Assembly (NCBI GenBank): GCA_904395315.1
Contig: CAJFNT010000090.1
Location: forward strand, 1 to 43,893
Source of the DNA: an uncultured Clostridia bacterium
Lineage (GTDB): Bacteria > Bacillota > Clostridia > UBA1381
Direction of reading: 5' to 3'
DNA: 43,893 nt
Shown in pieces: positions 2,412 through 26,904 of this stretch. The notes beneath the pieces are model-generated. The model ran no database searches. It saw only the letters and a list, made by a program, of their open reading frames with translations, and was not told the DNA's origin. Within the stretch, counting starts at the first letter, position 1, and each line of letters begins with the position of its first letter. The position numbers and the translations under genes are program-made.

Positions 2412-5400
2412 TTAGTTCTTGAATACGACATTCTCCTCGCCAAATTCATATTTCAGCTCTCTCACAGCCGATGCGGATCCGTTAAAATAAAGATCTCTCG
2501 GCACCCTTGATTGTTTTTTTGTATCGGTAAAATACAACCTTACTTCTATATCGCCTCTGAACGGCGCAAGTGCCTCACGCACATCTTCAAGTGATTTCGC
2601 ATCCTTTGTCTCGAGCCTTATATATAAACGTCTGTTCCCTGTATCAGCATCACTGCTATTTCCATTAAATTTCTGCTTTGCAGCGTTTCTTTTTTGAGTG
2701 TTGATAGATTCTCTTTCTATTGCATCCTCAAGCGGTTCCGCCTCATTTAACAGCAATTTCGGAGTTTCATCTTCCCGTATACTTAGCGTTCCCGCAGCAA
2801 GAACAGTTCTTCCTTCCTGCAGCATGCTCGAAAATCTTGCAAGCACTTTCGGAAACACAAGGCATTCCACATAACCGAAAGCATCTTCCAAAGTTACAAA
2901 CGCCATCTGAGATTTCGCCCTTGTGATCTTATTCTTCCTCGCCTCTATAATGCCTCCGATCATCACTCTGTCACCGTCATTTAATCCATTCCCAGAATGC
3001 ACGAATTCACCGTCTTCATTTTTTACTACGCTTTCATTTATATCGGCCGTAGTATTTGCGCCTATCTGCTTAAGTTTGACCGTATATTCATCCATTGGAT
3101 GACCCGAAAAATACATGCCTATAGACTGTTTCTCCATCCTGAGCAGCTCTCTTTGGGGGAATTCATCTATATCAGGCAATGCGATCTCGGGTTTTTCATC
3201 TATTTCATCAAATAGCGACATCTGTCCCGATATATTCTCACGAGCCGCTGCGGCAGAATCACTTATAGCATCCTCATAAACACGCATGAGCTGAGAACGC
3301 TTTATTCCCATAGAATCGAATGCGCCGCACATTATAAGCCCCTCTACCGCGCGTTTATTCATATCGGCACCGCTCATTCTGTCTATAAAATCAGAAAAGG
3401 TTTTAAAACTCCCATTTCTGTCACGCTCCAGCAACATATGATCTATAAACGCTTTTCCGACATTTTTGACAGCGGCAAGACCAAACCTGATCGCATTGTT
3501 TTCCACTGTAAATCCGAGACGGCTTTTATTCACATCTGGCGGCAGACGGTCAATGCCCATCTCCTTACAGTTTATGATATAATGATTGATTTTATCCGTC
3601 TCTTCTATTGTAGAGATCAAAGCAGCCATATATTCTACCGGATAAAAAGTTTTCAGGTATGCCGTTTGATAAGCGACGAAAGCATAGGCAGCAGCATGCG
3701 ACTTATTGAAAGCATAATTTGCAAAATCGTTGATCTCATTAAATATAGATATTGCCGTCTCCTCATCTATGCCGTTTTTAATACATCCCGGAATGGATCC
3801 ATCCTCACTGCCGTAAATAAAATTACGGCGCTCGATCTTCATCTGATCTGCCTTCTTTTTTGAAATCACGCGTCTCAGCTGATCGGCTTTACCGAGTGAA
3901 TACCCCGCAAGTACACGGACTATCTCAAGCACCTGTTCCTGATAAACCATACATCCGTATGTTACATCCAGGATAGGTTCAAGCAGCGGATGCTTATATG
4001 TTACATCCTGAGGATTTCGCTTATTGTGAATATATCTCGGTATCTGCTCCATCGGTCCTGGTCTGTACAGGGATACTCCGGCTATTATATCTTCAAGACT
4101 ATCCGGCTTAAGTTCTGTCATAAATGACTGCATACCGGCGCTTTCAAGCTGGAACACACCATCCGTGTTTCCAGAAGATATAAGTTCAAACACCTCAGGT
4201 CTGTCATAGTCTATTTTCTCTATATCTATGTCAATGCCCCTTGTACTCTTTATTATATCCAAAGCGCTTGAGATCACTGTCAAGTTCCTGAGTCCAAGAA
4301 AATCCATCTTTAAAAGTCCAAGACTTTCCACGGTATCTTTGGGGAACTGAGTAGTTATGAAATTATCCTTGTTTAAAGTAAGCGGTACATAATTTACTAT
4401 TGGCTCACCTGTTATAACCACTCCGGCCGCATGCGTTGACGCATGCCTCGGAAGTCCTTCAAGAACTCTTGAAGTATCTATAAGACGCTTTACCTGCTGA
4501 TCCGAATCATACAGAGCCTTCAGCTCTGGTGATGTTTCCAGAGCCTCATCCAAAGTTATTTTCAGAGTTGTAGGCACAAGTTTTGCCACTCTGTCCACAT
4601 CCGCATATGGCATATTAAGAGCTCTTCCCACATCTCTTATCGCCAATTTTGCCTTCATTGTTCCAAATGTAACGATCTGCGCCACATTGTCCGCTCCGTA
4701 TTTTTCAACAACATACTCTATGACTTTCTGCCGTCCCTCCGGCTCAAAGTCAATATCTATATCAGGCATACTTACTCGTTCAGGGTTCAAAAAACGCTCA
4801 AAAATAAGAGAATATCTTATCGGATCTATACTTGTTATCCCTAATGTATATGAAACAAGACTTCCCGCCGCGCTTCCTCTTCCGGGGCCAACGCTAACAC
4901 CGTGCGTCTTTGCAAAATGTATAAAATCACGAACTATAAGGAAATAATCAATAAATCCCATACGCTTTATAACGCCCAGCTCATACTCGAGCCTGTCCCT
5001 AAGCTCATCTGTTATATTCTCATAATGCTCTTCCAGCCCTTCAAAGCAAAGAGATGAAAGATACTCAAACGCATCTCTTCCATCCGGCACATCGAACTTC
5101 GGCAGATGCCGAGTCTCAAAATCAAAGTCTACATTACATCTTTTCGCGATCTTCGCCGTGTTATCTATAGCTTCTGGTATATTTGAAAACAGTTCACGCA
5201 TTTGTTCTTCAGACTTCAGATAGAATTCTCTCGTCTCAAATCTCATCCTATCCTCATCATCCACTGTTTTTTCCATCTGAATACACATCAATACATCTTG
5301 ATAGAACGCGTCGTTCTCCGTAAGATAATGTATATCGTTCGTTGCAACAAGTCCGAGATCCAATTCTCTTGCCAGATCAATAAGTTCAGGCAATATTCTT

Positions 5401-5948
5401 TTTTGATCTGCCAAACCATGATCCTGCAATTCTATAAAAAAGTTATCTCTTCCGAAAATATCTAAATATTCTTCCGCTGCCTTTTTTGCGCCGACATGGT
5501 CGCCATTAACAAGAGCCTTAGGTATCTCTCCGGCCAAACATGCCGAAAGAGCTATTATTCCCTCCGAGTGAGAACGCAAAAGTTCCTTGTCCACTCTCGG
5601 CTTATAATAATAGCCCTCTATACATCCCATGCTTACAAGATATATCAGATTTTTATATCCCGTTTGATTTTCCGCAAGCAAAATAAGATGTGAATATTTA
5701 TTATCCACGCCATACACTTTATCAAACCTTGATCCGGGCGCAACATATACTTCACAGCCTATTATCGGTTTGATACCATTATCTCTGCACTCACGATAAA
5801 AATCCACCACACCGTACATTGTTCCATGGTCGGTTATGGCACAGCTCTCCATTCCAAGCTCCTTTACTCTGGCTACGAGCTTCTTTATGCTTGCCTCACC
5901 GTCCAGCAAACTATATTCGGTATGAGTATGAAGATGGCAAAATGCCAT
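2412..5948 (-). CDS. dnaE: DNA polymerase III subunit alpha
   Basis: 1178 aa; N-terminal PHP domain (FCHLHTHTEYSLLDG), GPGRGSAAGSLVSY, PDIDIDFEPEGR, YRPGPMEQIP motifs. Confidence 0.97.
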   Translation of the reverse strand: MAFCHLHTHTEYSLLDGEASIKKLVARVKELGMESCAITDHGTMYGVVDFYRECRDNGIKPIIGCEVYVAPGSRFDKVYGVDNKYSHLILLAENQTGYKNLIYLVSMGCIEGYYYKPRVDKELLRSHSEGIIALSACLAGEIPKALVNGDHVGAKKAAEEYLDIFGRDNFFIELQDHGLADQKRILPELIDLARELDLGLVATNDIHYLTENDAFYQDVLMCIQMEKTVDDEDRMRFETREFYLKSEEQMRELFSNIPEAIDNTAKIAKRCNVDFDFETRHLPKFDVPDGRDAFEYLSSLCFEGLEEHYENITDELRDRLEYELGVIKRMGFIDYFLIVRDFIHFAKTHGVSVGPGRGSAAGSLVSYTLGITSIDPIRYSLIFERFLNPERVSMPDIDIDFEPEGRQKVIEYVVEKYGADNVAQIVTFGTMKAKLAIRDVGRALNMPYADVDRVAKLVPTTLKITLDEALETSPELKALYDSDQQVKRLIDTSRVLEGLPRHASTHAAGVVITGEPIVNYVPLTLNKDNFITTQFPKDTVESLGLLKMDFLGLRNLTVISSALDIIKSTRGIDIDIEKIDYDRPEVFELISSGNTDGVFQLESAGMQSFMTELKPDSLEDIIAGVSLYRPGPMEQIPRYIHNKRNPQDVTYKHPLLEPILDVTYGCMVYQEQVLEIVRVLAGYSLGKADQLRRVISKKKADQMKIERRNFIYGSEDGSIPGCIKNGIDEETAISIFNEINDFANYAFNKSHAAAYAFVAYQTAYLKTFYPVEYMAALISTIEETDKINHYIINCKEMGIDRLPPDVNKSRLGFTVENNAIRFGLAAVKNVGKAFIDHMLLERDRNGSFKTFSDFIDRMSGADMNKRAVEGLIMCGAFDSMGIKRSQLMRVYEDAISDSAAAARENISGQMSLFDEIDEKPEIALPDIDEFPQRELLRMEKQSIGMYFSGHPMDEYTVKLKQIGANTTADINESVVKNEDGEFVHSGNGLNDGDRVMIGGIIEARKNKITRAKSQMAFVTLEDAFGYVECLVFPKVLARFSSMLQEGRTVLAAGTLSIREDETPKLLLNEAEPLEDAIERESINTQKRNAAKQKFNGNSSDADTGNRRLYIRLETKDAKSLEDVREALAPFRGDIEVRLYFTDTKKQSRVPRDLYFNGSASAVRELKYEFGEENVVFKN

Positions 5949-6050
5949 GATATACCCTCCTCTATATATTTACACAAAAGTATATACGCCATAAAAACAA
6001 ACTTGTCACAGCGTATATTCTCTGATCATCTTCTGAATTGCTAAATATCC

Positions 6051-6920
6051 TCAATTTTCAGCTTCTGTCCGCGTATCTATACTTTCCGCGTATCTGATTA
6101 TGCGGCTCAGTCTATGATTTACACCTGATTTCCCTATCCCCTGACTCGTCATTTTGCCAAGCTCCTCCATGCTGACATCCGGATATTTTAATCTAAGCTC
6201 GCCTATCTCTCTAAGGACATCAGGCAATGTCTGCCATTTACGTGCTGATTTAATTTTCTTTATCGCTGCGATCTGTTTCGAGCTTGCCTTAGCCTGCTTA
6301 TTCAGATTTGCACTGTCACAATTGACCTGACGTATGATCGAGTTCTTCATCTCTTTTTCAACCTGTGCTGATATTATCTCAAGTCCGGCTCTTCCGCCGC
6401 TCATATATCCTAAAATATCGGCTATATTGCCGCTTTCTTTTATATATACTATCTCCCTGCCTTTTCTGACAGTTCTTTTAGCTTTCACTTCTAACTTCTG
6501 CAAACAATCTATGAGTATAAATGCCCCGCGTTCGGATTTTGTGTCGAATTCCATATGATATTCCTTTTTGGGGTCACTTACAGAACCTCCGCCAAGAAAC
6601 GCACCGCGAATATATGCTCTCACGCAACATAAATTTTTCGGAATATATCCTATCAGTTCATCCCTCATTTTTGTCAACAGATACTCATTATCTATAACGA
6701 TTTTTCCGTCATAACTGATATCCGTTCCGAATTCTTCAAAAATAGATTTACATACACGTTTTAACACAAAATCGGATGATGAGTTAAATCTTGGAGTGTC
6801 ATCCTCGATACGTCCGGTAAAGTCAAACACTCCCGCCAATTCAGCCTTGCGGCATTCTTCACATTCATACGCTGTTTCACACAAACACTGTTTAATTTCC
6901 GATGAAAAAGACATTTTCAC
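6051..6920 (-). CDS. whiA: DNA-binding protein WhiA
   Basis: 289 aa; LAGlIDADG-like N-domain (RAYIRGAFLGGGSVSDPKKEYHMEF) plus C-terminal HTH (LRLKYPDVSMEELGKMTSQGIGKSGVNHRLSRI); next to yvcK and rapZ. Confidence 0.93.
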   Translation of the reverse strand: MKMSFSSEIKQCLCETAYECEECRKAELAGVFDFTGRIEDDTPRFNSSSDFVLKRVCKSIFEEFGTDISYDGKIVIDNEYLLTKMRDELIGYIPKNLCCVRAYIRGAFLGGGSVSDPKKEYHMEFDTKSERGAFILIDCLQKLEVKAKRTVRKGREIVYIKESGNIADILGYMSGGRAGLEIISAQVEKEMKNSIIRQVNCDSANLNKQAKASSKQIAAIKKIKSARKWQTLPDVLREIGELRLKYPDVSMEELGKMTSQGIGKSGVNHRLSRIIRYAESIDTRTEAEN

Positions 6921-6939
6921 CTATCCTTCCATAAAAGAA

Positions 6940-7890
6940 CTATTCTCCGAGTCTTGCGATACCTCTCGCAAGTCTTATAAAATTATGGCGTATCTGTCCG
7001 TTTTTCACCAAAAACATATTGCCATGCAGAACATTCACTCGCTTTGCAAGCTCATCTATACCGGCCTCTACAGGGACAGAGCCTTCCGCCGCGTATGTCT
7101 CTTTAACGCTGTCAGGTATCGGCGCATCATTCACAACTATGTAATCTGCAATACCCTTATACGAATGCTTTTCAACAGCATCAAGATGATCCGCGGCAGA
7201 CATTCCGTCTGTCTCACCCGGCTCAGTCATTATATTACAAACATATACCTTCTTTGCGCTGCTGTCCGAAATAGCCTGTATTATACCGTCAACAAGAAGA
7301 TTAGGTATCACACTCGTATAAAGACTTCCCGGACCAAGCACAACTATATCAGCCTCTTTGATCGCGTTTACCGCGCTCTCAACAGGTCTCGCCCAGGCCG
7401 GATTTATAAATACGCGCTCTATAGGCGCAGCTCCCGCCGGTCTTTCTCCTATATTTGATTCGCCATATATAATATTTCCGTCTGTCAGTTCGGCCCCGAG
7501 AGTTATCGAATCATTCGATACGGGAATAACCTTTCCCGATATCCCTACCAATCGACTAAGCTTAGATACCGCCTCGTCAAAATTCTCAGAATTCTCATTG
7601 ATAGCCGCAAGCAGCATATTACCTACTGTATGCCCTTCGAACACACCCTCGCGAAATCTGTAATTCAACAGATCGGCATATTGTTCATCCATGTCGATAA
7701 GCGCCGCGATACAATTTCTCACATCTCCCGGAGGGAGCATCCCCATATCGCTGCGCAGAACACCGGACGAGCCTCCGTCATCGGCCACGGAAACTATGGC
7801 AGTTATCTGCCTTGTATGAAGCTTTAAACCTTTAAGCATAGTCGAAAGACCTGTGCCTCCGCCTATAGCTGCAATTTTCAATTCACTCAT
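6940..7890 (-). CDS. yvcK: Gluconeogenesis factor YvcK/CofD-like
   Basis: 316 aa; AAIGGGTGLSTMLKGLK, VADDGGSSGVLRSD, LGPGSLYTSVIPNLLV motifs. Confidence 0.95.
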   Translation of the reverse strand: MSELKIAAIGGGTGLSTMLKGLKLHTRQITAIVSVADDGGSSGVLRSDMGMLPPGDVRNCIAALIDMDEQYADLLNYRFREGVFEGHTVGNMLLAAINENSENFDEAVSKLSRLVGISGKVIPVSNDSITLGAELTDGNIIYGESNIGERPAGAAPIERVFINPAWARPVESAVNAIKEADIVVLGPGSLYTSVIPNLLVDGIIQAISDSSAKKVYVCNIMTEPGETDGMSAADHLDAVEKHSYKGIADYIVVNDAPIPDSVKETYAAEGSVPVEAGIDELAKRVNVLHGNMFLVKNGQIRHNFIRLARGIARLGE

Positions 7891-8738
7891 ATTTTTATAT
7901 CTCTGTGAACGGTATCCACCGTATACCCCAACCCTTTGAGAAACTCCGCCAACTTGTTTGCCATTGTAACACTTCTATGATGTCCGCCGGTACATCCTAT
8001 AGCTATCATAAGAGAACGTCTTCCTTCCTCAACGTACAGCGGCACAAGGAACTCCATCATATCAGTGAGTTTATCAAAAAATTTCTGTGACGACGGAAAC
8101 TTCATAACATAATCCTGTACTTCCTTATCATTTCCGGTCTTATGCTTGAGATCCGGCTCATAAAAAGGATTTGGGAAACACCGCACATCAAAGACCAGAT
8201 CCGCATCCGTCGGTATCCCATGCTTGAATCCGAATGATACGACCTTTATCTCAAACATGGAATTCACAGCAGTCAGATTGTAAATATCCATAAATCGATC
8301 ACGCAGCTGACTGCTTGTCATATACGATGTATCTATTACATAATCTGAACATTCCCTAAGTTTGTACAGCATCTTCCTCTCCTCTTGGATCGACGCAAGC
8401 AATCCATCAGGATTATTGAGAGGATGATTTCGACGTGTCTCCTTATATCTGCTCACAAGTGTATTGTCATTTGTATCAAGAAAAATAAGCCTTACATTAT
8501 ACTTCTCCCTGAGCTGCTCTACCTGTCCGAGCAGCTCATTTATCATATCTCCGACCCTTATATCTATAACAAGAGCTACGTTCCTGAACTTATCCTTCAC
8601 TGATGTAAGCATATTTGCAAGCATCGGGATAAGCGCAGGCGGCATATTATCTATGCAAAAATATCCGAGATCTTCAAAAAAATGTATAGCCTGCGTCTTT
8701 CCTGAGCCCGACATTCCGGTTAAAATAGTAAAATCCAT
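7887..8738 (-). CDS. rapZ: RNase adapter protein RapZ (YvcJ)
   Basis: 283 aa; Walker A GMSGSGKTQAIHFFEDLGYFCIDNMPP, C-terminal IGCTGGHHRSVTMANKLAE. Confidence 0.96.
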   Translation of the reverse strand: MDFTILTGMSGSGKTQAIHFFEDLGYFCIDNMPPALIPMLANMLTSVKDKFRNVALVIDIRVGDMINELLGQVEQLREKYNVRLIFLDTNDNTLVSRYKETRRNHPLNNPDGLLASIQEERKMLYKLRECSDYVIDTSYMTSSQLRDRFMDIYNLTAVNSMFEIKVVSFGFKHGIPTDADLVFDVRCFPNPFYEPDLKHKTGNDKEVQDYVMKFPSSQKFFDKLTDMMEFLVPLYVEEGRRSLMIAIGCTGGHHRSVTMANKLAEFLKGLGYTVDTVHRDIKI

Positions 8739-8766
8739 AAACGCACCTCCTTTATCGGCAGAAATG

Positions 8767-9630
8767 CTATCGCATATCCCCGATCAGACGTACCTCCGGC
8801 TCCAGACGCACGCCAAATTTTTTCTCAACTGTGTCCTGTATATATTTTATGAGTTCGACAACATCCGCCGCTGTCGCGCCTCCGTTATTTACAACAAATC
8901 CAGCATGCTTCTCACTGACAGAAGCTCCTCCTATAGAATATCCCATCAAGCCGGCATCCTGAATGAGCTTTCCGGCAAAATACCCTTCCGGTCTTTTAAA
9001 TGTACTGCCTGCAGACGGTTTTGAAAGCGGCTGTTTTTCACTTCTTCGCCTGCTGTACTCATCCATGGCTGATCGTATTTCATCAACATTCCCGTGTTTC
9101 AGGCCAAATGTAACAGAAACTATATATTTTCCTCCGTCCGAGAAAACACTTCTTCTGTAACCGAAACAGCAATCATAACCTTGGATCGTATGCATATCTC
9201 CCTTATCATCAATATATGTTACAGTTTTCACCACATTACCGATCTCTCCGCCATACGCTCCGGCATTCATAAAGACAGCTCCGCCTACAGTTCCCGGGAT
9301 CCCTGAGATCTCTTCAAATCCCGAAAGCGATGCGCGCATCGCCTCCGCTGCGACTTTAGACATCATCGCTCCGGCCTCCGCGGTTATCATATCACCGCTC
9401 ACTGTTATATCGGATAAATTTCTGCCTATCTGTATCACAAGACCGCGTATTCCGCCATCCCCGACAAGCATATTTGAACCGTTGCCCATTATCATATAAG
9501 GAACATCAAGTTCATTTGCAAGCCTTATCAGATCAGCCGCCTCATTTGAACTTTTTACACTTACGAATAGATCCGCAGGTCCGCCTATCTTAAATGACGT
9601 ATGAGCGCTCATCATCTCATTTTCAAGCAA
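8767..9630 (-). CDS. murB: UDP-N-acetylmuramate dehydrogenase (start uncertain, possibly 9675)
   Basis: HTSFKIGGPADLFV, GNGSNMLVGDGGIRG, GIPGTVGGAVFMNAGAYGGE, SAGSTFKRP. The reading frame stays open upstream to 9675 with MurB-like residues. Confidence 0.93.
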   Translation of the reverse strand: MLENEMMSAHTSFKIGGPADLFVSVKSSNEAADLIRLANELDVPYMIMGNGSNMLVGDGGIRGLVIQIGRNLSDITVSGDMITAEAGAMMSKVAAEAMRASLSGFEEISGIPGTVGGAVFMNAGAYGGEIGNVVKTVTYIDDKGDMHTIQGYDCCFGYRRSVFSDGGKYIVSVTFGLKHGNVDEIRSAMDEYSRRRSEKQPLSKPSAGSTFKRPEGYFAGKLIQDAGLMGYSIGGASVSEKHAGFVVNNGGATAADVVELIKYIQDTVEKKFGVRLEPEVRLIGDMR

Positions 9631-9697
9631 TCCATCCGAAACAGCTCTAAATCTATCGATTATCTCCTTATTAATAGTCGTTTTCCCCTTTCATATA

Positions 9698-10441
9698 TCA
9701 GCAGGTCTCTAATCTATGCTGCCCAAGCTTTTTTCCGCGCGCTGTTTCCATGAACTCTTTAAAAACATCATAAGATCTGTTCATTATCAGCTCATTCGGA
9801 AAATCTATTTCATATAAAAGCTCAAGAGCCTTAGAATAGTTTCCTATGTCCATATAAAAATGAGCATCCGAGCTGACAACGATCCCCGTGCCGTGTTTTT
9901 TACACAGCTCGGCTATACGCCTGCAGTTTGGAACGCTTGCGCTTCTAACAAAAAAAGTATGGTTATTTATCTCTATCAATTTATTATACTCAGCCGCAAG
10001 GCGCACTATATATTCATAATCATACGCAAAATCCGGAGAACCGCTGTGGCAGATTATATCAATATCCGGATTCTTGATAACAGCCTCATAAGCGCTCGTA
10101 TGATCCTTTGCATCACAGTCCTTGTACGCCTGTCTGTGGATACTTACATTTACAACATCAAGCTTTTGCAAAAGCGAAGACTGAAGATCCACATTCCCCT
10201 CAAGATCCAAGATATTGAGTTCAACGCCTGTCAATATCTTCTTTCCAAAAAGTTCGGTCGGCAAATTTTTCAGATTCCTGAAATGCCACTCGTGCGGGGC
10301 ATCCGGAAGTGTCGGAGCATGGTCCGTAACAGCAATACCGTCCATACCGATCTTCGCGGCAAAAGACGCATTTTCAGACACGGTCGAATATGCATGCGTG
10401 CTCGCTATTGTATGCGTGTGTGTGTCAAATTTTATTCTCAT
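9698..10441 (-). CDS. PHP-domain phosphoesterase (YcdX-like)
   Basis: 247 aa; FDTHTHTIASTHAYSTVSENA, GIAVTDHAPTLPDAPH, VVSSDAHFYMDIGNY. Confidence 0.88.
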   Translation of the reverse strand: MRIKFDTHTHTIASTHAYSTVSENASFAAKIGMDGIAVTDHAPTLPDAPHEWHFRNLKNLPTELFGKKILTGVELNILDLEGNVDLQSSLLQKLDVVNVSIHRQAYKDCDAKDHTSAYEAVIKNPDIDIICHSGSPDFAYDYEYIVRLAAEYNKLIEINNHTFFVRSASVPNCRRIAELCKKHGTGIVVSSDAHFYMDIGNYSKALELLYEIDFPNELIMNRSYDVFKEFMETARGKKLGQHRLETC

Positions 10442-10487
10442 GCGCTTCTCCTTTCACTATGAAAGCAGTACGTTTTTAATACGATGA

Positions 10488-11432
10488 TCACTGGAGATTA
10501 AGCTGCTCTTCCATCTGATGCATCAATCTATTGTTAAGCTCGACCGCCGCATTATAACCCATTTTTTTCTGTCTGTTATTCATTGCCGCGACCTCTACTA
10601 TGACCGCTATATTCCTTCCAAGCTTTACTGGTATAGTAAGCGAAGGCACGTTTATTCCCATAATATTTGTATACTCATCCACCATTCCGAGTCGGTCATA
10701 CTGTTTTCCTTTCTCCCATGGTTCAAGGTGGATGACCATGTCGATCGTTTGCTCGTCCTTGATCGCTCCCATACCGAAAATCTCTTTGACATCTATGATG
10801 CCGATCCCTCGCACTTCCACAAAGTGTCGGATGATCTCCGGAGAGGAACCTATAAGTGTTGAATCTGAAATTTTCTTTATCTCGACCGCATCATCTGCAA
10901 CAAGACGATGACCGCGCTTTACCAGCTCAATCGCCGCTTCGCTTTTTCCAACTCCGCTTTCGCCCATTATAAGAATACCCTCACCGTATATCTCGCACAG
11001 CACACCATGGCGGGTCTTTCTCGGAGCAAGCTGCTCGTTTAGATAGCGTATTATCATGCTCATGAACTGTGAAGTCCCAAGCTCTGAACGCAAAAGAGGT
11101 ATCTTGTACTCTTCCGCATATTCAAGCATCTCAGGGAATATTTGTAAGCCGCGAGCTATTACGAGAGCCGGAAATCCCTGTGAAAAATACTGTTCAAGTC
11201 TCTTTTCACGCTCATGCGTAGAAAACTGCTCGAGAAATGTGAACTCCTCCTTGCCCATTATCTGTATACGCTCGCTGTCAAAGAACTTTATAAAACCTAT
11301 CATTTGAAGTCCCGGGCGGTTTATATCCGATTTTGTTACAAAAATCGAGTCCACATTCTTTGGCTCATATATGACCTCAAGGGAAAACTTCTCAATTATT
11401 TTTCCCAACGGCAATTTTGCGGTATTTTCCAT
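10488..11432 (-). CDS. hprK: HPr kinase/phosphorylase
   Basis: 314 aa; GEGILIMGESGVGKSEAAIELVKRGHRLVADDAVEI and EVRGIGIIDVKEIFG signatures. Confidence 0.96.
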   Translation of the reverse strand: MENTAKLPLGKIIEKFSLEVIYEPKNVDSIFVTKSDINRPGLQMIGFIKFFDSERIQIMGKEEFTFLEQFSTHEREKRLEQYFSQGFPALVIARGLQIFPEMLEYAEEYKIPLLRSELGTSQFMSMIIRYLNEQLAPRKTRHGVLCEIYGEGILIMGESGVGKSEAAIELVKRGHRLVADDAVEIKKISDSTLIGSSPEIIRHFVEVRGIGIIDVKEIFGMGAIKDEQTIDMVIHLEPWEKGKQYDRLGMVDEYTNIMGINVPSLTIPVKLGRNIAVIVEVAAMNNRQKKMGYNAAVELNNRLMHQMEEQLNLQ

Positions 11433-19261: not shown

Positions 19262-20391
19262 TTTGATTTGCCCTCCTTTAAAGATCTCAGCAGTTCATAA
19301 GCAAGCTGTGCCTCTTTAGGCTCCTCCAGCAGCGCCGATAAGAACTTTGCAGAAAAGGATGTTTCCGGGAACTCTGCGTCAATAGTCTCTTTTGAGAGCA
19401 ATTTGCTCAGAGAATAATCGTCATATGTATATTCAATAAAACGCGAAAGTCTGTCCTCAATAATGTCAGCTCTGTTATCATATTCTTCCGCCGTGACCGC
19501 TCCCGAAAGGATGATATCTACCACACTGTTATCATCAATACCCGATAACTCACGATCCAGCACATTCTCCATTTCTCCCGCGGAAAGTGTGATATTTTTT
19601 CGATAAAAACGAAGGTTTCCCGATATGAATCTCTTAGCTCGAACCATTTTGTTGTCATCAACTTCAACAATAAAGCACTGCCCTTCTGTATTGCAAGAAA
19701 CATCCGTCTGCACATGAGTTCCCGCGTTTAATATATTTTCACAAGCGGTAAATTCATCTGTTAAATTATTCGGGAAAGGAACATGTGTATGACCGATCAG
19801 CCAGACATCAACAGGAATAGCCTCCAATTCTTCTCTCTTCATAAGGAAATATTGACCTTCATTATCAATAGTTTCACCTTCAACAGCGCCATGCGCAATT
19901 CCGACACGATAAGTATCGTCTTGAATAATATTTTCATCTTTTATCCATCCAAGGTTATTTTTGCCCTGAGCGGAATGCATAGAGGTACAAAGCGCAGGAT
20001 ATAAAACGACATCCTCACCATTTGCATTAACATTATAAGGTCTGTAATCGGTCAGCAACATAATATTATCATAGGTTTCCATCACATCTTTAAAATACAG
20101 CCAGACTTTGACTTCCTTGCTATAATAATCATGATTTCCCGGCAGCACAACAACTGTTCCTTTAAAGCGTGATAGCATATCTAAAAGTAACTTGATATCC
20201 TTCTTAGATATACCGTAAGTATTTTCGAACAGATCCCCTGTGATCACAAAAAGGTCACAGTTTTCCCTGTTCGCAGCCCGGACCATAGACTCAAACGCGG
20301 ACATTCTTCTTTCCGAAAGCACAGACGCCTTTTCATGACTGGCATATTTTAAACCTATATGATTATCACCGGTCACAAAAATTTTCAACAT
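19258..20391 (-). CDS. Metallophosphoesterase / DNA repair exonuclease (YhaO/SbcD-like)
   Basis: 377 aa; FVTGDNHIGLKYAS, VITGDLFEN, VLPGNHDYYSKE, GIAHGAVEG, LIGHTHVP motifs. Confidence 0.9.
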   Translation of the reverse strand: MLKIFVTGDNHIGLKYASHEKASVLSERRMSAFESMVRAANRENCDLFVITGDLFENTYGISKKDIKLLLDMLSRFKGTVVVLPGNHDYYSKEVKVWLYFKDVMETYDNIMLLTDYRPYNVNANGEDVVLYPALCTSMHSAQGKNNLGWIKDENIIQDDTYRVGIAHGAVEGETIDNEGQYFLMKREELEAIPVDVWLIGHTHVPFPNNLTDEFTACENILNAGTHVQTDVSCNTEGQCFIVEVDDNKMVRAKRFISGNLRFYRKNITLSAGEMENVLDRELSGIDDNSVVDIILSGAVTAEEYDNRADIIEDRLSRFIEYTYDDYSLSKLLSKETIDAEFPETSFSAKFLSALLEEPKEAQLAYELLRSLKEGKSK

Positions 20392-20552: not shown

Positions 20553-20581
20553 TTGACAAACAGGTTAGTTTATGCTAATAT
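20553..20581 (+). promoter_or_regulatory. Consensus promoter of the putative ncRNA
   Basis: TTGACA - 17 nt - TAATAT. Confidence 0.7.
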
Positions 20582-20587
20582 ATATTA

Positions 20588-20940
20588 TGTAATTGATATA
20601 TAAATAAGTTTTATGGAACGTATATTATACACATCCTACTACTTGTTTTATGCAATTCTCCCCATAGCGGTGCTGAAGACGAAAATTTAAACGCAAGCAT
20701 TTTGAGGCAGATGTTCACTCCCTTTTATATCCATGTACTGTAACGCGTGACATATGTCCCAACAAATTTTCGCTTCAAAGGAATACGGAAAAGTCAGCGA
20801 AGGGTATCATTCAGCATATATTTATCGAGCCTCTTGCCATGGCGGTTCTTCCGAAAGCCTAAACTCCTATTCCGTTTTCCATCATACCGCAATCGAATAT
20901 CTAACATCCCGGATATAATGATGCCGGGATGTTTTTTTAT
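20588..20940 (+). ncRNA. Putative structured noncoding RNA with three-way junction
   Basis: Promoter upstream, no convincing ORF; helices GCGGT(20667-20671):ACCGC(20886-20890), GAAGaCGAAAATTT(20675-20688):AAATTTTCGCTTC(20764-20776), GGAATACGGAA(20780-20790):TTCCGTTTTCC(20870-20880); ends in an intrinsic terminator. Confidence 0.6.
20904..20939 (+). terminator. Rho-independent terminator of the putative ncRNA
   Basis: ACATCCCGG-atataatgatg-CCGGGATGT followed by TTTTTT. Confidence 0.9.
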
Positions 20941-21089
20941 TTAGGACGGCTTTCTAATCGTATTTTAATCTGTATGATATAAACTAAGTTTAAACTAAAT
21001 AATAATACACGGTAAACATACCGCTATTTACTTTTCCGAAAATTTATGATAATATAATTTAAAGTTTCACAGAAAGGCGGAGGATATTT

Positions 21090-23366: not shown

Positions 23367-25099
23367 ATGAAGCTTATTCTGCAATTTCTTAAACCGCATC
23401 GGCGTCTTTTCGCCCTTACGGTCATATTAATGATCATAGATGTTGCCGGAGCTCTGTACATACCCACACTGGCAGCCGAGCTGCTCAACGAAGGCACCTC
23501 AGGCAGCTCGTTTAACGATCTGATAAACACCGGAATAAAAATGGCTGCCGCATCGATCGCCTCCGGCGCCAGCGCGATACTCGGCGGATACGCGTGTTCA
23601 AGGCTTTCAGCAGAGCTCGGAAAGGATATGCGAGTAGCTCTTTACAAAAAATCATTAAAGCTCTCCGTATACGATTTCCGTCAGTTCGGAACAGCCTCTG
23701 TTACTACAAGAACTATATCGGATATAACGAACATACAGTTCGCGTTCATAAGCTGTATCCAGATGGTCCTGCCGGTACCTGTCATCTTTATCATTGCGGT
23801 CACGCTCTCATTCAAACTGAATATAACGATGGCATCGATACTTGTCGCCGTCCTCGCTATCGTGCTGATAATCGCATTTTTCGTGATGCGCAGCGCGGCG
23901 CCGCAGTTCAAAAGGCTGCAAAAACTTCTTGACCGCATGACTGCGGTGCTTCTTGAAAACATAACCGGAGTGCGTGTCGTGCGCGCATTCAATAATGAAG
24001 AACGAGAAGAAGCAAGACTGGACAAATCATTTTCGAATTATGCCGAAACAGCGATCAAAGTAAACAGAAAATTCGCTCATCTCGACGGTATATCATTCAT
24101 GTTTATAAACGCGTTCGTCGTTGCCGTATACTGGCTCAGCGGAGGACAGATAAGCGCAGGCAAATTCCAGATCGGAGACATCACTGCGATCATACAATAT
24201 GCGATGCTGGTCCTGTTCTTCCTTATGATGGCGCAAATGGTCATACTGACACTGCCCCGAGCACTTGAGTGCTGCAACAGAGTAAGCGAAGTTTTAGAGC
24301 ATTCACCTGAAATACGTGATCTTGTTGCGGAAAAAACATTTGACAAGACAAAGAAGAAAGACAATGTACTGGAATTTAAAAACGTCTCGTTCCGCTTTGC
24401 AGATGCCGAAGAATATGCGCTCAGCGATCTTAGCTTTGTCTGCCGCCGCGGTCAGACGACGGCGGTTATAGGCGGCACCGGAAGCGGAAAATCGACCGTT
24501 GCCTCGCTTGCGATGAGATTTCATGACGTTACAAAGGGCGCCGTTCTCTTAAACGGAAGGGATATACGGAAGATCACGCAGCACGAGCTGAGAGACTGTC
24601 TCGCCTACGTTCAGCAGAAAGCATGGCTCTTCTCCGGAACGATAGCCGAAAATCTGCGTTACGGAAATCCCGATGCGACCGATGAGGACTCATGCACGCA
24701 GCCGACATTGCGATGGCTGGAGACTTTATCCGGTCCCTGCCCGACGGGCTGAACTCATGAGTCGCACAGGGCGGCTCAAACTTTTCGGGCGGACAGAAGC
24801 AGAGGCTTTCGATAGCCCGCGCGCTCGTTAAAAAGCCTGAGCTGTACATATTCGACGACAGCTTCTCCGCGCCCGACTTCAAGACCGACGCGGCACTGCG
24901 CAAGGCTCTCAAATCAGAAACGAAGGATGCGGCAGTGCTCATAATCGCGCAGCATGTAAGCACGATCAGAAACGCCGACTGCATCGTTGTCCTTGACGAG
25001 GGCAGACCCGCAGGCATCGGAACTCATGACGAGCTCATGAAAACCTGTCCTATCTACCGCGAAATAACGGAATCTCAAACAAAGGAGACGGAAGATGAA
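23367..25099 (+). pseudogene. ABC exporter half-transporter 1 (TMD-NBD), disrupted by a frameshift and an in-frame TGA
   Basis: Intact TMD and Walker A (GGTGSGKST) to 24685; 1-nt deletion near 24688; corrected frame reads [59 protein letters not shown]...; TGA at 24758-24760. Confidence 0.85.
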
Positions 25100-26904
25100 T
25101 AAGAAAAAAGATATTCGCAAGACAGCATACGACGCTCCGAAAAACACACGAAGCACTATGATACGCCTGTTTTCGCAGCTGAAAAGCCAGCGCATACGGC
25201 TCATTTTTGTCGCTGTCTGTATCATAATATATACGCTTTTAAGCATCTACAACCCTATATTCAGCGCCGAGGTCATTGACCGCCTCTGGAACAGTATAAA
25301 GGCCTCACTTTCCTCCGGAGCTCCGTTTACAATAACATGGCACGGCATAGGCGCATCGCTTGTACAGCTTTCGCTCCAGTATCTGCTTACAGGACTGTTT
25401 TATTACCTTCAGTCCTACCTGATGGCAAGCGTTGCAGAGAGTCTCACGCTTTCGCTGCGCGATCAGATAGCCGCAAAGCTGAACCGCCTGCCGCTGAGCT
25501 TTTTCGACCGCAACAAAGCAGGCGAAATACTCAGCCGTGTTACCACCGACCTCGACAAGATTTCGGAAACGCTTCAAACAGGACTCTTAAAGCTGCTTAC
25601 GGCAATAGGCACGGTCATAGGCTCACTTATAGTCATGTTTTACTATGATGTGCTTTTGACCTGCATATTCCTCGTTTCCATGCTGATAAGCATTGTGATC
25701 ACAAAGATCGTATCCGCAAAGAGTCTCAGTTCTGCTTCTCTCAGACAGGAGACCCTGGCGAACCTGACAGGTATAGCGGAAGAATATTATCAGGGCAGAA
25801 ACGTTATAAAGGCATATAACCACGAAAAAGAAAGCATCGAACAGATCACGCAGGCAGCGGACGAGGCGCGCGATGCGATGCAGAAGGCGGACTTCCTCAC
25901 TAACTGTGTGAACCCGCTTATACGAATGATCACAAGACTGGCACATGTGGCGGTCGCAGTCATCGCCGGACGCGCAATGCTCAACGGCACCATGACGATA
26001 GGTATCGTGCAGGCATTTTTCCAGTACGTAAACCAAACAGCCGAGCCGCTTACCGAGGCTTCATATATGATAAACTCAATGCAGTCCGCTCTCGCATCTG
26101 CAGAAAGGACCTTCGAGCTGCTCGACGAGGAAGAGGAGCTCCCGGATCCTGTCTCCCCTGCCATGCTTGAGAACACCCGCGGAGAAATAAGGTTCGAGCA
26201 TGTGAGCTTCGGCTACACGCCCGAACGTATTCTAATGAAGGATATAAGCTTTGAAGCGCTGCCCGGACAGAAGATCGCCGTAGTCGGCTCCACAGGTGCC
26301 GGAAAGACGACACTTATAAATCTTCTGATGCGCTTTTACAAGGTAAACGGGCGGCAGCATTAAAATAGACGGAGTGAGATCGTCAGATATGACCCGCAGC
26401 GGACTAAGACGCAATTTCGGCATGGTCCTTCAGGACACATGGCTGTTCGGCGGAACAATAGCCGAAAACATAGCATACGGCAAGCCCGACGCGTCACGCA
26501 AGGAGATAATCGCCGCCGCAAAGGCAGCAATGACTGATTATTTTATCCGGACCATGCCCGACGGCTACGACACTGTCATAGACAATGAGGCGTCGAACCT
26601 CTCAGCGGGACAGAAGCAGCTTCTGACTATCGCCAGAGTATTCCTCTGCGATCCGCCGGTACTGATCCTCGATGAAGCCACCTCCAGCGTCGATACGCGC
26701 ACGGAAAAGGAGATCGGCAAGGCGATGAAAAAGCTCATGGACGGCAGAACAAGCTTTATTATCGCGCACAGGCTCTCCACGATACGCGACGCCGACAACA
26801 TCCTGTTCATGGAACACGGCAATATAATTGAGCAGGGAAATCATAAAGAGCTGCTTAAAAAGAAAGGCGCATATGCATCGCTCTACTACAGTCAGTTTGC
26901 ATAA
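25095..26904 (+). pseudogene. ABC exporter half-transporter 2 (TMD-NBD), disrupted by a single frameshift
   Basis: ORF 25095-26363 ends ...GAGKTTLINLLMRFYKVNGRQH*; removing one G at about 26349-26351 restores NGGSIKIDGVRSSDMTRSGLRRNFGMVLQDTWLFGG... which continues to 26904 (LSAGQKQLLTIARVF, ILDEATSSVD). Confidence 0.85.

Follow-up and report, generated by a model that had tools for sequence, protein, structure and literature searches.

A structured RNA behind a putative DtxR-type promoter box that may spare iron in uncultured gut Clostridia

We identified a conserved, folded RNA gene of about 350 nucleotides, here called RNA A, in a 43,893-nucleotide stretch of DNA (the window) from an uncultured gut Clostridia bacterium. 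RNA A may be a trans-acting small RNA (sRNA) that is repressed by a DtxR-family protein, induced by metal starvation and able to block translation of iron-using proteins, a reading to which we assign a probability of roughly 0.6. It probably belongs to a small set of RNAs produced under iron scarcity to switch off iron-hungry proteins, because its switch is the DNA box of iron-uptake genes. Iron sparing is thus the most likely function, though not an established one. Our computational analyses revealed the structure of RNA A, a homologue, the promoter box, membership in a regulon and several sibling RNAs. An earlier note on this DNA had proposed a candidate structured RNA, which stands; its regulation through a DtxR-type promoter box, the sibling RNAs and a mechanism were missing from that account.

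RNA A lies in a 700-bp gap between a phosphoesterase gene on the minus strand (start at 20391) and a downstream gene for an OmpR-type response regulator (21090). The gap holds one complete transcription unit and, as had been claimed, no credible open reading frame: promoter and terminator are both present, and the longest frame encodes only 65 amino acids. We rejected this frame as a gene; its GTG start has no Shine-Dalgarno sequence, lies beside the P2 arm described below and is not kept in a related genome (G014). The plus-strand sigma-70 promoter (TTGACA-N17-TAATAT, 20553–20581) consists of a −35 element TTGACA (20553–20558), a 17-nucleotide spacer and a −10 element TAATAT (20576–20581) with an extended −10 TG, and the same promoter also stands before feo genes and the sibling RNAs. 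RNA A (20588–20938, plus strand) has a start placed from the −10 element and ends in the T-run of an intrinsic terminator (20903–20938, plus strand), which has a 10-bp GC-rich stem (20903–20912 with 20924–20933). Elsewhere in the window, two adjacent ABC exporter genes (23367–24752 and 25095–26363) both seem to end early in the ATP-binding domain, possibly because they are frameshifted by assembly error or decay.

The minimum-energy fold of 20590–20940 (−80.7 kcal/mol) includes helices P1, P2 and P3, a 5′ hairpin and the terminator; shuffled sequences average −69.5 kcal/mol (z −2.0), with 1 of 100 equally stable. P1 pairs GCGGT (20667–20671) with ACCGC (20886–20890), P2 pairs 20675–20688 with 20764–20776 and P3 pairs 20780–20790 with 20870–20880, all on the plus strand. 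These positions, like those of the promoter and terminator, had been reported before and were all correct on rechecking. The long helices had been judged unlikely to arise by chance, and shuffled strands indeed pair equally well in just 3 of 2000 trials for P2 and 8 of 2000 for P3. The long 5′ hairpin (about 20591–20657), which the earlier list of helices did not include, has an outer stem AATTG...CAATT and an inner stem AAATAAGT...ACTTGTTTT, and is nearly unchanged in G014. It is separated from P1 by CTCCCC (20658–20663), a C-rich unpaired segment of the anti-Shine-Dalgarno type. A second C/U-rich segment, CTCCCTTTT (20718–20726), occupies the apical region of P2 within a 22-nucleotide block that is identical in G014. 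The apical region of P3 contains CCATGGCGGTTC (20837–20848), which bears a CCAT-N3-RGTTC motif in the alignment of the RNAs.

Among 61 genomes of the order, we found one true homologue of RNA A, in Ca. Ornithomonoglobus merdipullorum (G014). It is 77% identical over 290 nucleotides and adjoins the same response regulator, and an exact-pattern scan of genome contigs found only this species. Letters are identical in both species across the promoter, along the hairpin's 3′ side together with CAATTCTCCCCATAGCGGT, in CTCCCTTTTATATCCATGTACT and over most of TCATTCAGCATATA..TATCGA.CCTCTTGCCATGGCGGTTCTTCCGAAAGCC. P1 is unchanged. Where the window has GAAGACGAAAATTT:AAATTTTCGCTTC as P2, G014 has TATGAGCGTAAGTCT:AGACTCTCGCTCATA; the letters differ and the long helix stays, and none of 2000 shuffles was as stable as the G014 helix. 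Letters have likewise changed in P3 and in the terminator stem, where pairing is nonetheless retained. The compensatory change that was to be sought among homologues is thus seen in P2 between two A-type sequences, too few for a formal covariation test, and the pattern is the one expected of a conserved structure. Since a related species carries RNA A at the matching locus, where P1 has not changed and the P2 strands differ yet stay complementary, we conclude from sequence comparison that the gap contains a genuine, conserved, folded RNA gene of about 350 nucleotides. The same-locus homologue, the retained fold and the rebuilt P2 together support the view of a stand-alone, structured RNA outside Rfam with a multi-arm junction.

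RNA A matches no known RNA family in Rfam, in line with what had been proposed: no Rfam covariance model matches it at the curated (gathering) score, and a relaxed threshold yielded only chance-level matches (best E 4.3). On the former basis, RyhB, 6S RNA, tmRNA, RNase P and SRP RNA were rejected as its identity. In the papers we searched, no RNA of this kind had been described for Clostridia. RNA A is a new RNA outside Rfam; its probable functional kind is a known one, but its switch differs and its multi-arm architecture is much larger.

The promoter spacer of RNA A, GGTTAGTTTATGCTAA, carries the palindrome TTAG-N6-CTAA. This 14-bp operator, TTAGTTTATGCTAA (20565–20578), lies between the −35 and −10 elements, extends into the latter and is a putative DtxR-family box. 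We detected the combined promoter and box pattern at 19 places in 16 genomes of the genus (0 with a reversed-pattern control). A near-exact pattern, searched across 95 genomes of the order, was confined to this genus apart from one match at a dtxR-family gene in a sister genus. The box mainly precedes three groups of genes. First, it precedes feoA-feoA-feoB in the window's own genome (G000) and four others, a FeoB gene in a further genome (G002) and two genes for FeoB-associated Cys-rich proteins (named from sequence). Second, it precedes a DtxR-family repressor gene in 13 genomes; the repressor genes behind the box include those of G000 and of two sister genera. FeoA and DtxR proteins were assigned using Pfam. 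Finally, it precedes noncoding RNAs with terminators.

A few weak matches stand before other genes. On contig C87 of G000, a tRNA gene (anticodon read by eye as CAT) lies immediately behind a weak box and promoter copy with 2–3 mismatches. A weak promoter pattern in genome G010 (contig C83) precedes a gene for a Ser/Ala-rich secreted protein and is probably a chance match.

The classical DtxR box is TTAGGTTAGCCTAACCTAA (PMC7762939), which has TTAG/CTAA ends in common with the box of RNA A. We regard the latter as DtxR-type because it accompanies an autoregulated DtxR-type gene and control of feo, and its control of RNA A is well supported by these sequence associations. RNA A thus has, in silico, an operator in common with feoA-feoA-feoB and a dtxR-family gene, as expected of an iron-sparing sRNA. 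The control of feo points to iron rather than manganese as the probable metal. We assume that the metal-bound protein represses, on the basis of the repressor family and of a box that covers the promoter spacer.

We identified eight RNAs behind the box: A, B and C types plus two single forms. RNA A occurs in the window and G014, RNA B in the same two genomes, and C-type RNAs in two others (G004 and G007). The single forms are L054 (436 nucleotides, genome G003, contig C49) and L049 (186 nucleotides, G013). RNA A and its siblings share the promoter, a 5′ leader and, by alignment, the CCAT-N3-RGTTC motif. P1 begins with GCG and ends with CGC in every RNA except the shortest, L049. RNAs B and C, L054 and L049 bear UAUUUCUC within or beside a small hairpin. 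L054 has several UUUCUCC/UUUCCC-type repeats and a GCCATGGTGGTTCCC motif as in RNA A, and appears to be an enlarged sibling rich in anti-Shine-Dalgarno loops. We built a covariance model (R1) from the B- and C-type RNAs after excising the C-type inserts from the two C sequences before alignment. In a search of 70 genomes of the family, whose first pass scores few candidates, R1 returned only its own members; it does not detect RNA A, L054 or L049. By sequence, the box-driven RNAs are not one tight family, and RNA A may be a sibling that has diverged or else an RNA that arose independently and uses the same promoter.

Several observations bear on how these RNAs might act. First, CTCCCC has an unpaired probability of about 0.7–1.0 in both species and an identical sequence in both, and CTCCCTTTT is largely unpaired and likewise identical. 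RNA A thus carries, in two species, the exposed and conserved anti-Shine-Dalgarno segments that characterise iron-sparing sRNAs. Second, RNAs B and C carry an anti-Shine-Dalgarno sequence, UAUUUCUCCUUUC; in RNA B it is predicted to be mostly paired inside its own hairpin and would therefore have to open. Finally, the genome of the window contains a 21-nucleotide perfect complement to RNA B, TTTTATGTGAAAGGAGAAATA, which spans the Shine-Dalgarno sequence of an aldo/keto reductase gene. This candidate target has a C-terminal 4Fe-4S dicluster domain (2x[4Fe-4S]). Of 564 start regions sampled, this one offers RNA B the best site (−28.8 kcal/mol); shuffled seeds reach −21.2 kcal/mol on average at their best site, and 1 of 200 did as well. 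In G014 the match shrinks to 9 nucleotides. The second-best of the 564 is leuD, the small subunit of isopropylmalate dehydratase, with a 17-nucleotide run, G-U pairs included, that occurs in G014 as well as in G000. Because the leuC coding sequence extends into this site, conservation of the site does not count as independent evidence. A likeness of the leuC start region to RNA B was not counted, since G007 shows it too although that segment is missing from its RNA. With the reductase gene excluded, the class of Fe-S proteins pairs no better with RNA B than other proteins do (134 of 200 shuffles as good). As sequence matches, the two sites are only suggestive of RNA B targeting the aldo/keto reductase and leuD.

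Pairing searches yielded no convincing target for RNA A, and an extended target pattern matched only its own gene. Contig C95 of G000 (about 3600–11100) carries a microcompartment operon for shell proteins, PduL and an RnfC-like Fe-S protein, all named by eye; against segments of RNA A, several start regions in this operon are among the high-ranking ones, though without significance. The CCAT-N3-RGTTC motif is present in all eight otherwise divergent RNAs, has no obvious anti-Shine-Dalgarno character and might be a protein site. This motif, the long rigid arms and the lack of clear RNA A targets would fit a structured RNA under metal control that, instead of pairing with mRNA, works via a protein bound to it or serves another RNA as a sponge. 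We consider such a role unlikely, given that the C/U-rich segments are conserved and mostly unpaired and that RNA B has a 21-nucleotide match at a start site.

From the features above, we infer a metal, a direction of regulation, a pairing mechanism and targets for an iron-sparing RNA A. When metal (likely ferrous iron) is plentiful, the metal-bound DtxR-family repressor would occupy TTAG-N6-CTAA and silence RNA A along with feoA-feoA-feoB and the repressor's own gene. When metal is scarce, RNA A would be transcribed, and its folded arms would hold the conserved C/U-rich segments CTCCCC, CTCCCTTTT and TTCTTCC largely exposed. These segments would pair with Shine-Dalgarno and start regions and lower translation, chiefly of iron-containing proteins. 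RNA B would pair with the aldo/keto reductase and leuD start regions through its segment UCUCCUUU.

The same circuit could instead serve manganese, with an MntR-like repressor and a manganese-sparing sRNA such as RsaC of Staphylococcus aureus, a known MntR-linked sRNA. Manganese is conceivable because the regulator of G000 is short (123 amino acids; PF01325 plus PF02742) and has no SH3 domain, and DtxR proteins of this kind are, according to a review, not iron-responsive in vivo (PMC7762939). This reading is nevertheless improbable: the regulon consists of ferrous-iron uptake genes (feoA-feoA-feoB and FeoB-associated proteins), no manganese transporter was noticed among the box matches inspected, and the best predicted targets of RNA B are Fe-S enzymes.

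Because RNA A precedes the OmpR-type response regulator/kinase pair in both G000 and G014, it might also be a cis-acting leader of that pair. To this we give very little credence, as a strong terminator and then about 150 nucleotides separate it from the regulator gene, no such RNA stands before the orthologous regulators of G007 and G001, and the sibling RNAs are followed by other genes, among them pdxS, judged by sequence, in three genomes. A riboswitch or cis-leader, for which a fixed position before one gene family and read-through control would be expected, was rejected on the same grounds. It is most improbable that RNA A is an mRNA for a small basic protein, since the 65-amino-acid frame (20747–20944), although open, basic and partly open in G014 too, starts at a GTG without a Shine-Dalgarno sequence, has an N-terminal part that is not homologous in G014 and terminates within the terminator, and the P2 strands change compensatorily.

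Iron-rationing small RNAs have been described in a few model bacteria, where Fur usually controls them. We see about even odds that this genus of uncultured gut Clostridia meets metal starvation with several parallel, long (about 190–440 nucleotides), multi-arm RNAs that share one DtxR-type box and each display anti-Shine-Dalgarno loops, which would be a new architecture for an sRNA family. If so, they would possibly be the first iron-sparing RNAs under DtxR control to be found in Clostridia, and iron rationing by RNA would have been invented independently once more, here with unrelated, much longer molecules in an uncultured gut lineage.

RsaC is released from the mntABC mRNA and spares manganese; RNA A, in contrast, is transcribed from a promoter of its own and has a box common to iron-uptake genes. 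RsaC resembles RNA A in being tied to a DtxR-family repressor, MntR (PMC9294342); this 2022 review lists no iron-rationing sRNA for iron-sensing DtxR. A precedent nonetheless exists in Mycobacterium tuberculosis MrsI, whose promoter has a box for the DtxR-family repressor IdeR (PMC8628891), although MrsI is about 100 nucleotides long, uses a six-nucleotide seed and belongs to Actinobacteria. IsrR of S. aureus is iron-repressed and, like RNA A, has several exposed C-rich regions, which pair with the Shine-Dalgarno sequences of iron-protein mRNAs (PMC9410917); it has three hairpins and is Fur-controlled, whereas RNA A has a P1-closed multi-arm junction. Bacillus subtilis FsrA is likewise a stand-alone RNA under a metal repressor, with C-rich segments that also bind Shine-Dalgarno sequences in mRNAs for iron proteins, and its targets include gltA and leuCD, the latter corresponding to leuD, the predicted target of RNA B (PMC8464778). 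FsrA is 84 nucleotides long and controlled by Fur, in contrast to the roughly 350 nucleotides, DtxR-type box and absent Rfam match of RNA A. By analogy, RNA A may work like FsrA, IsrR or MrsI, although it shares no sequence relationship with them and is about four times their length.
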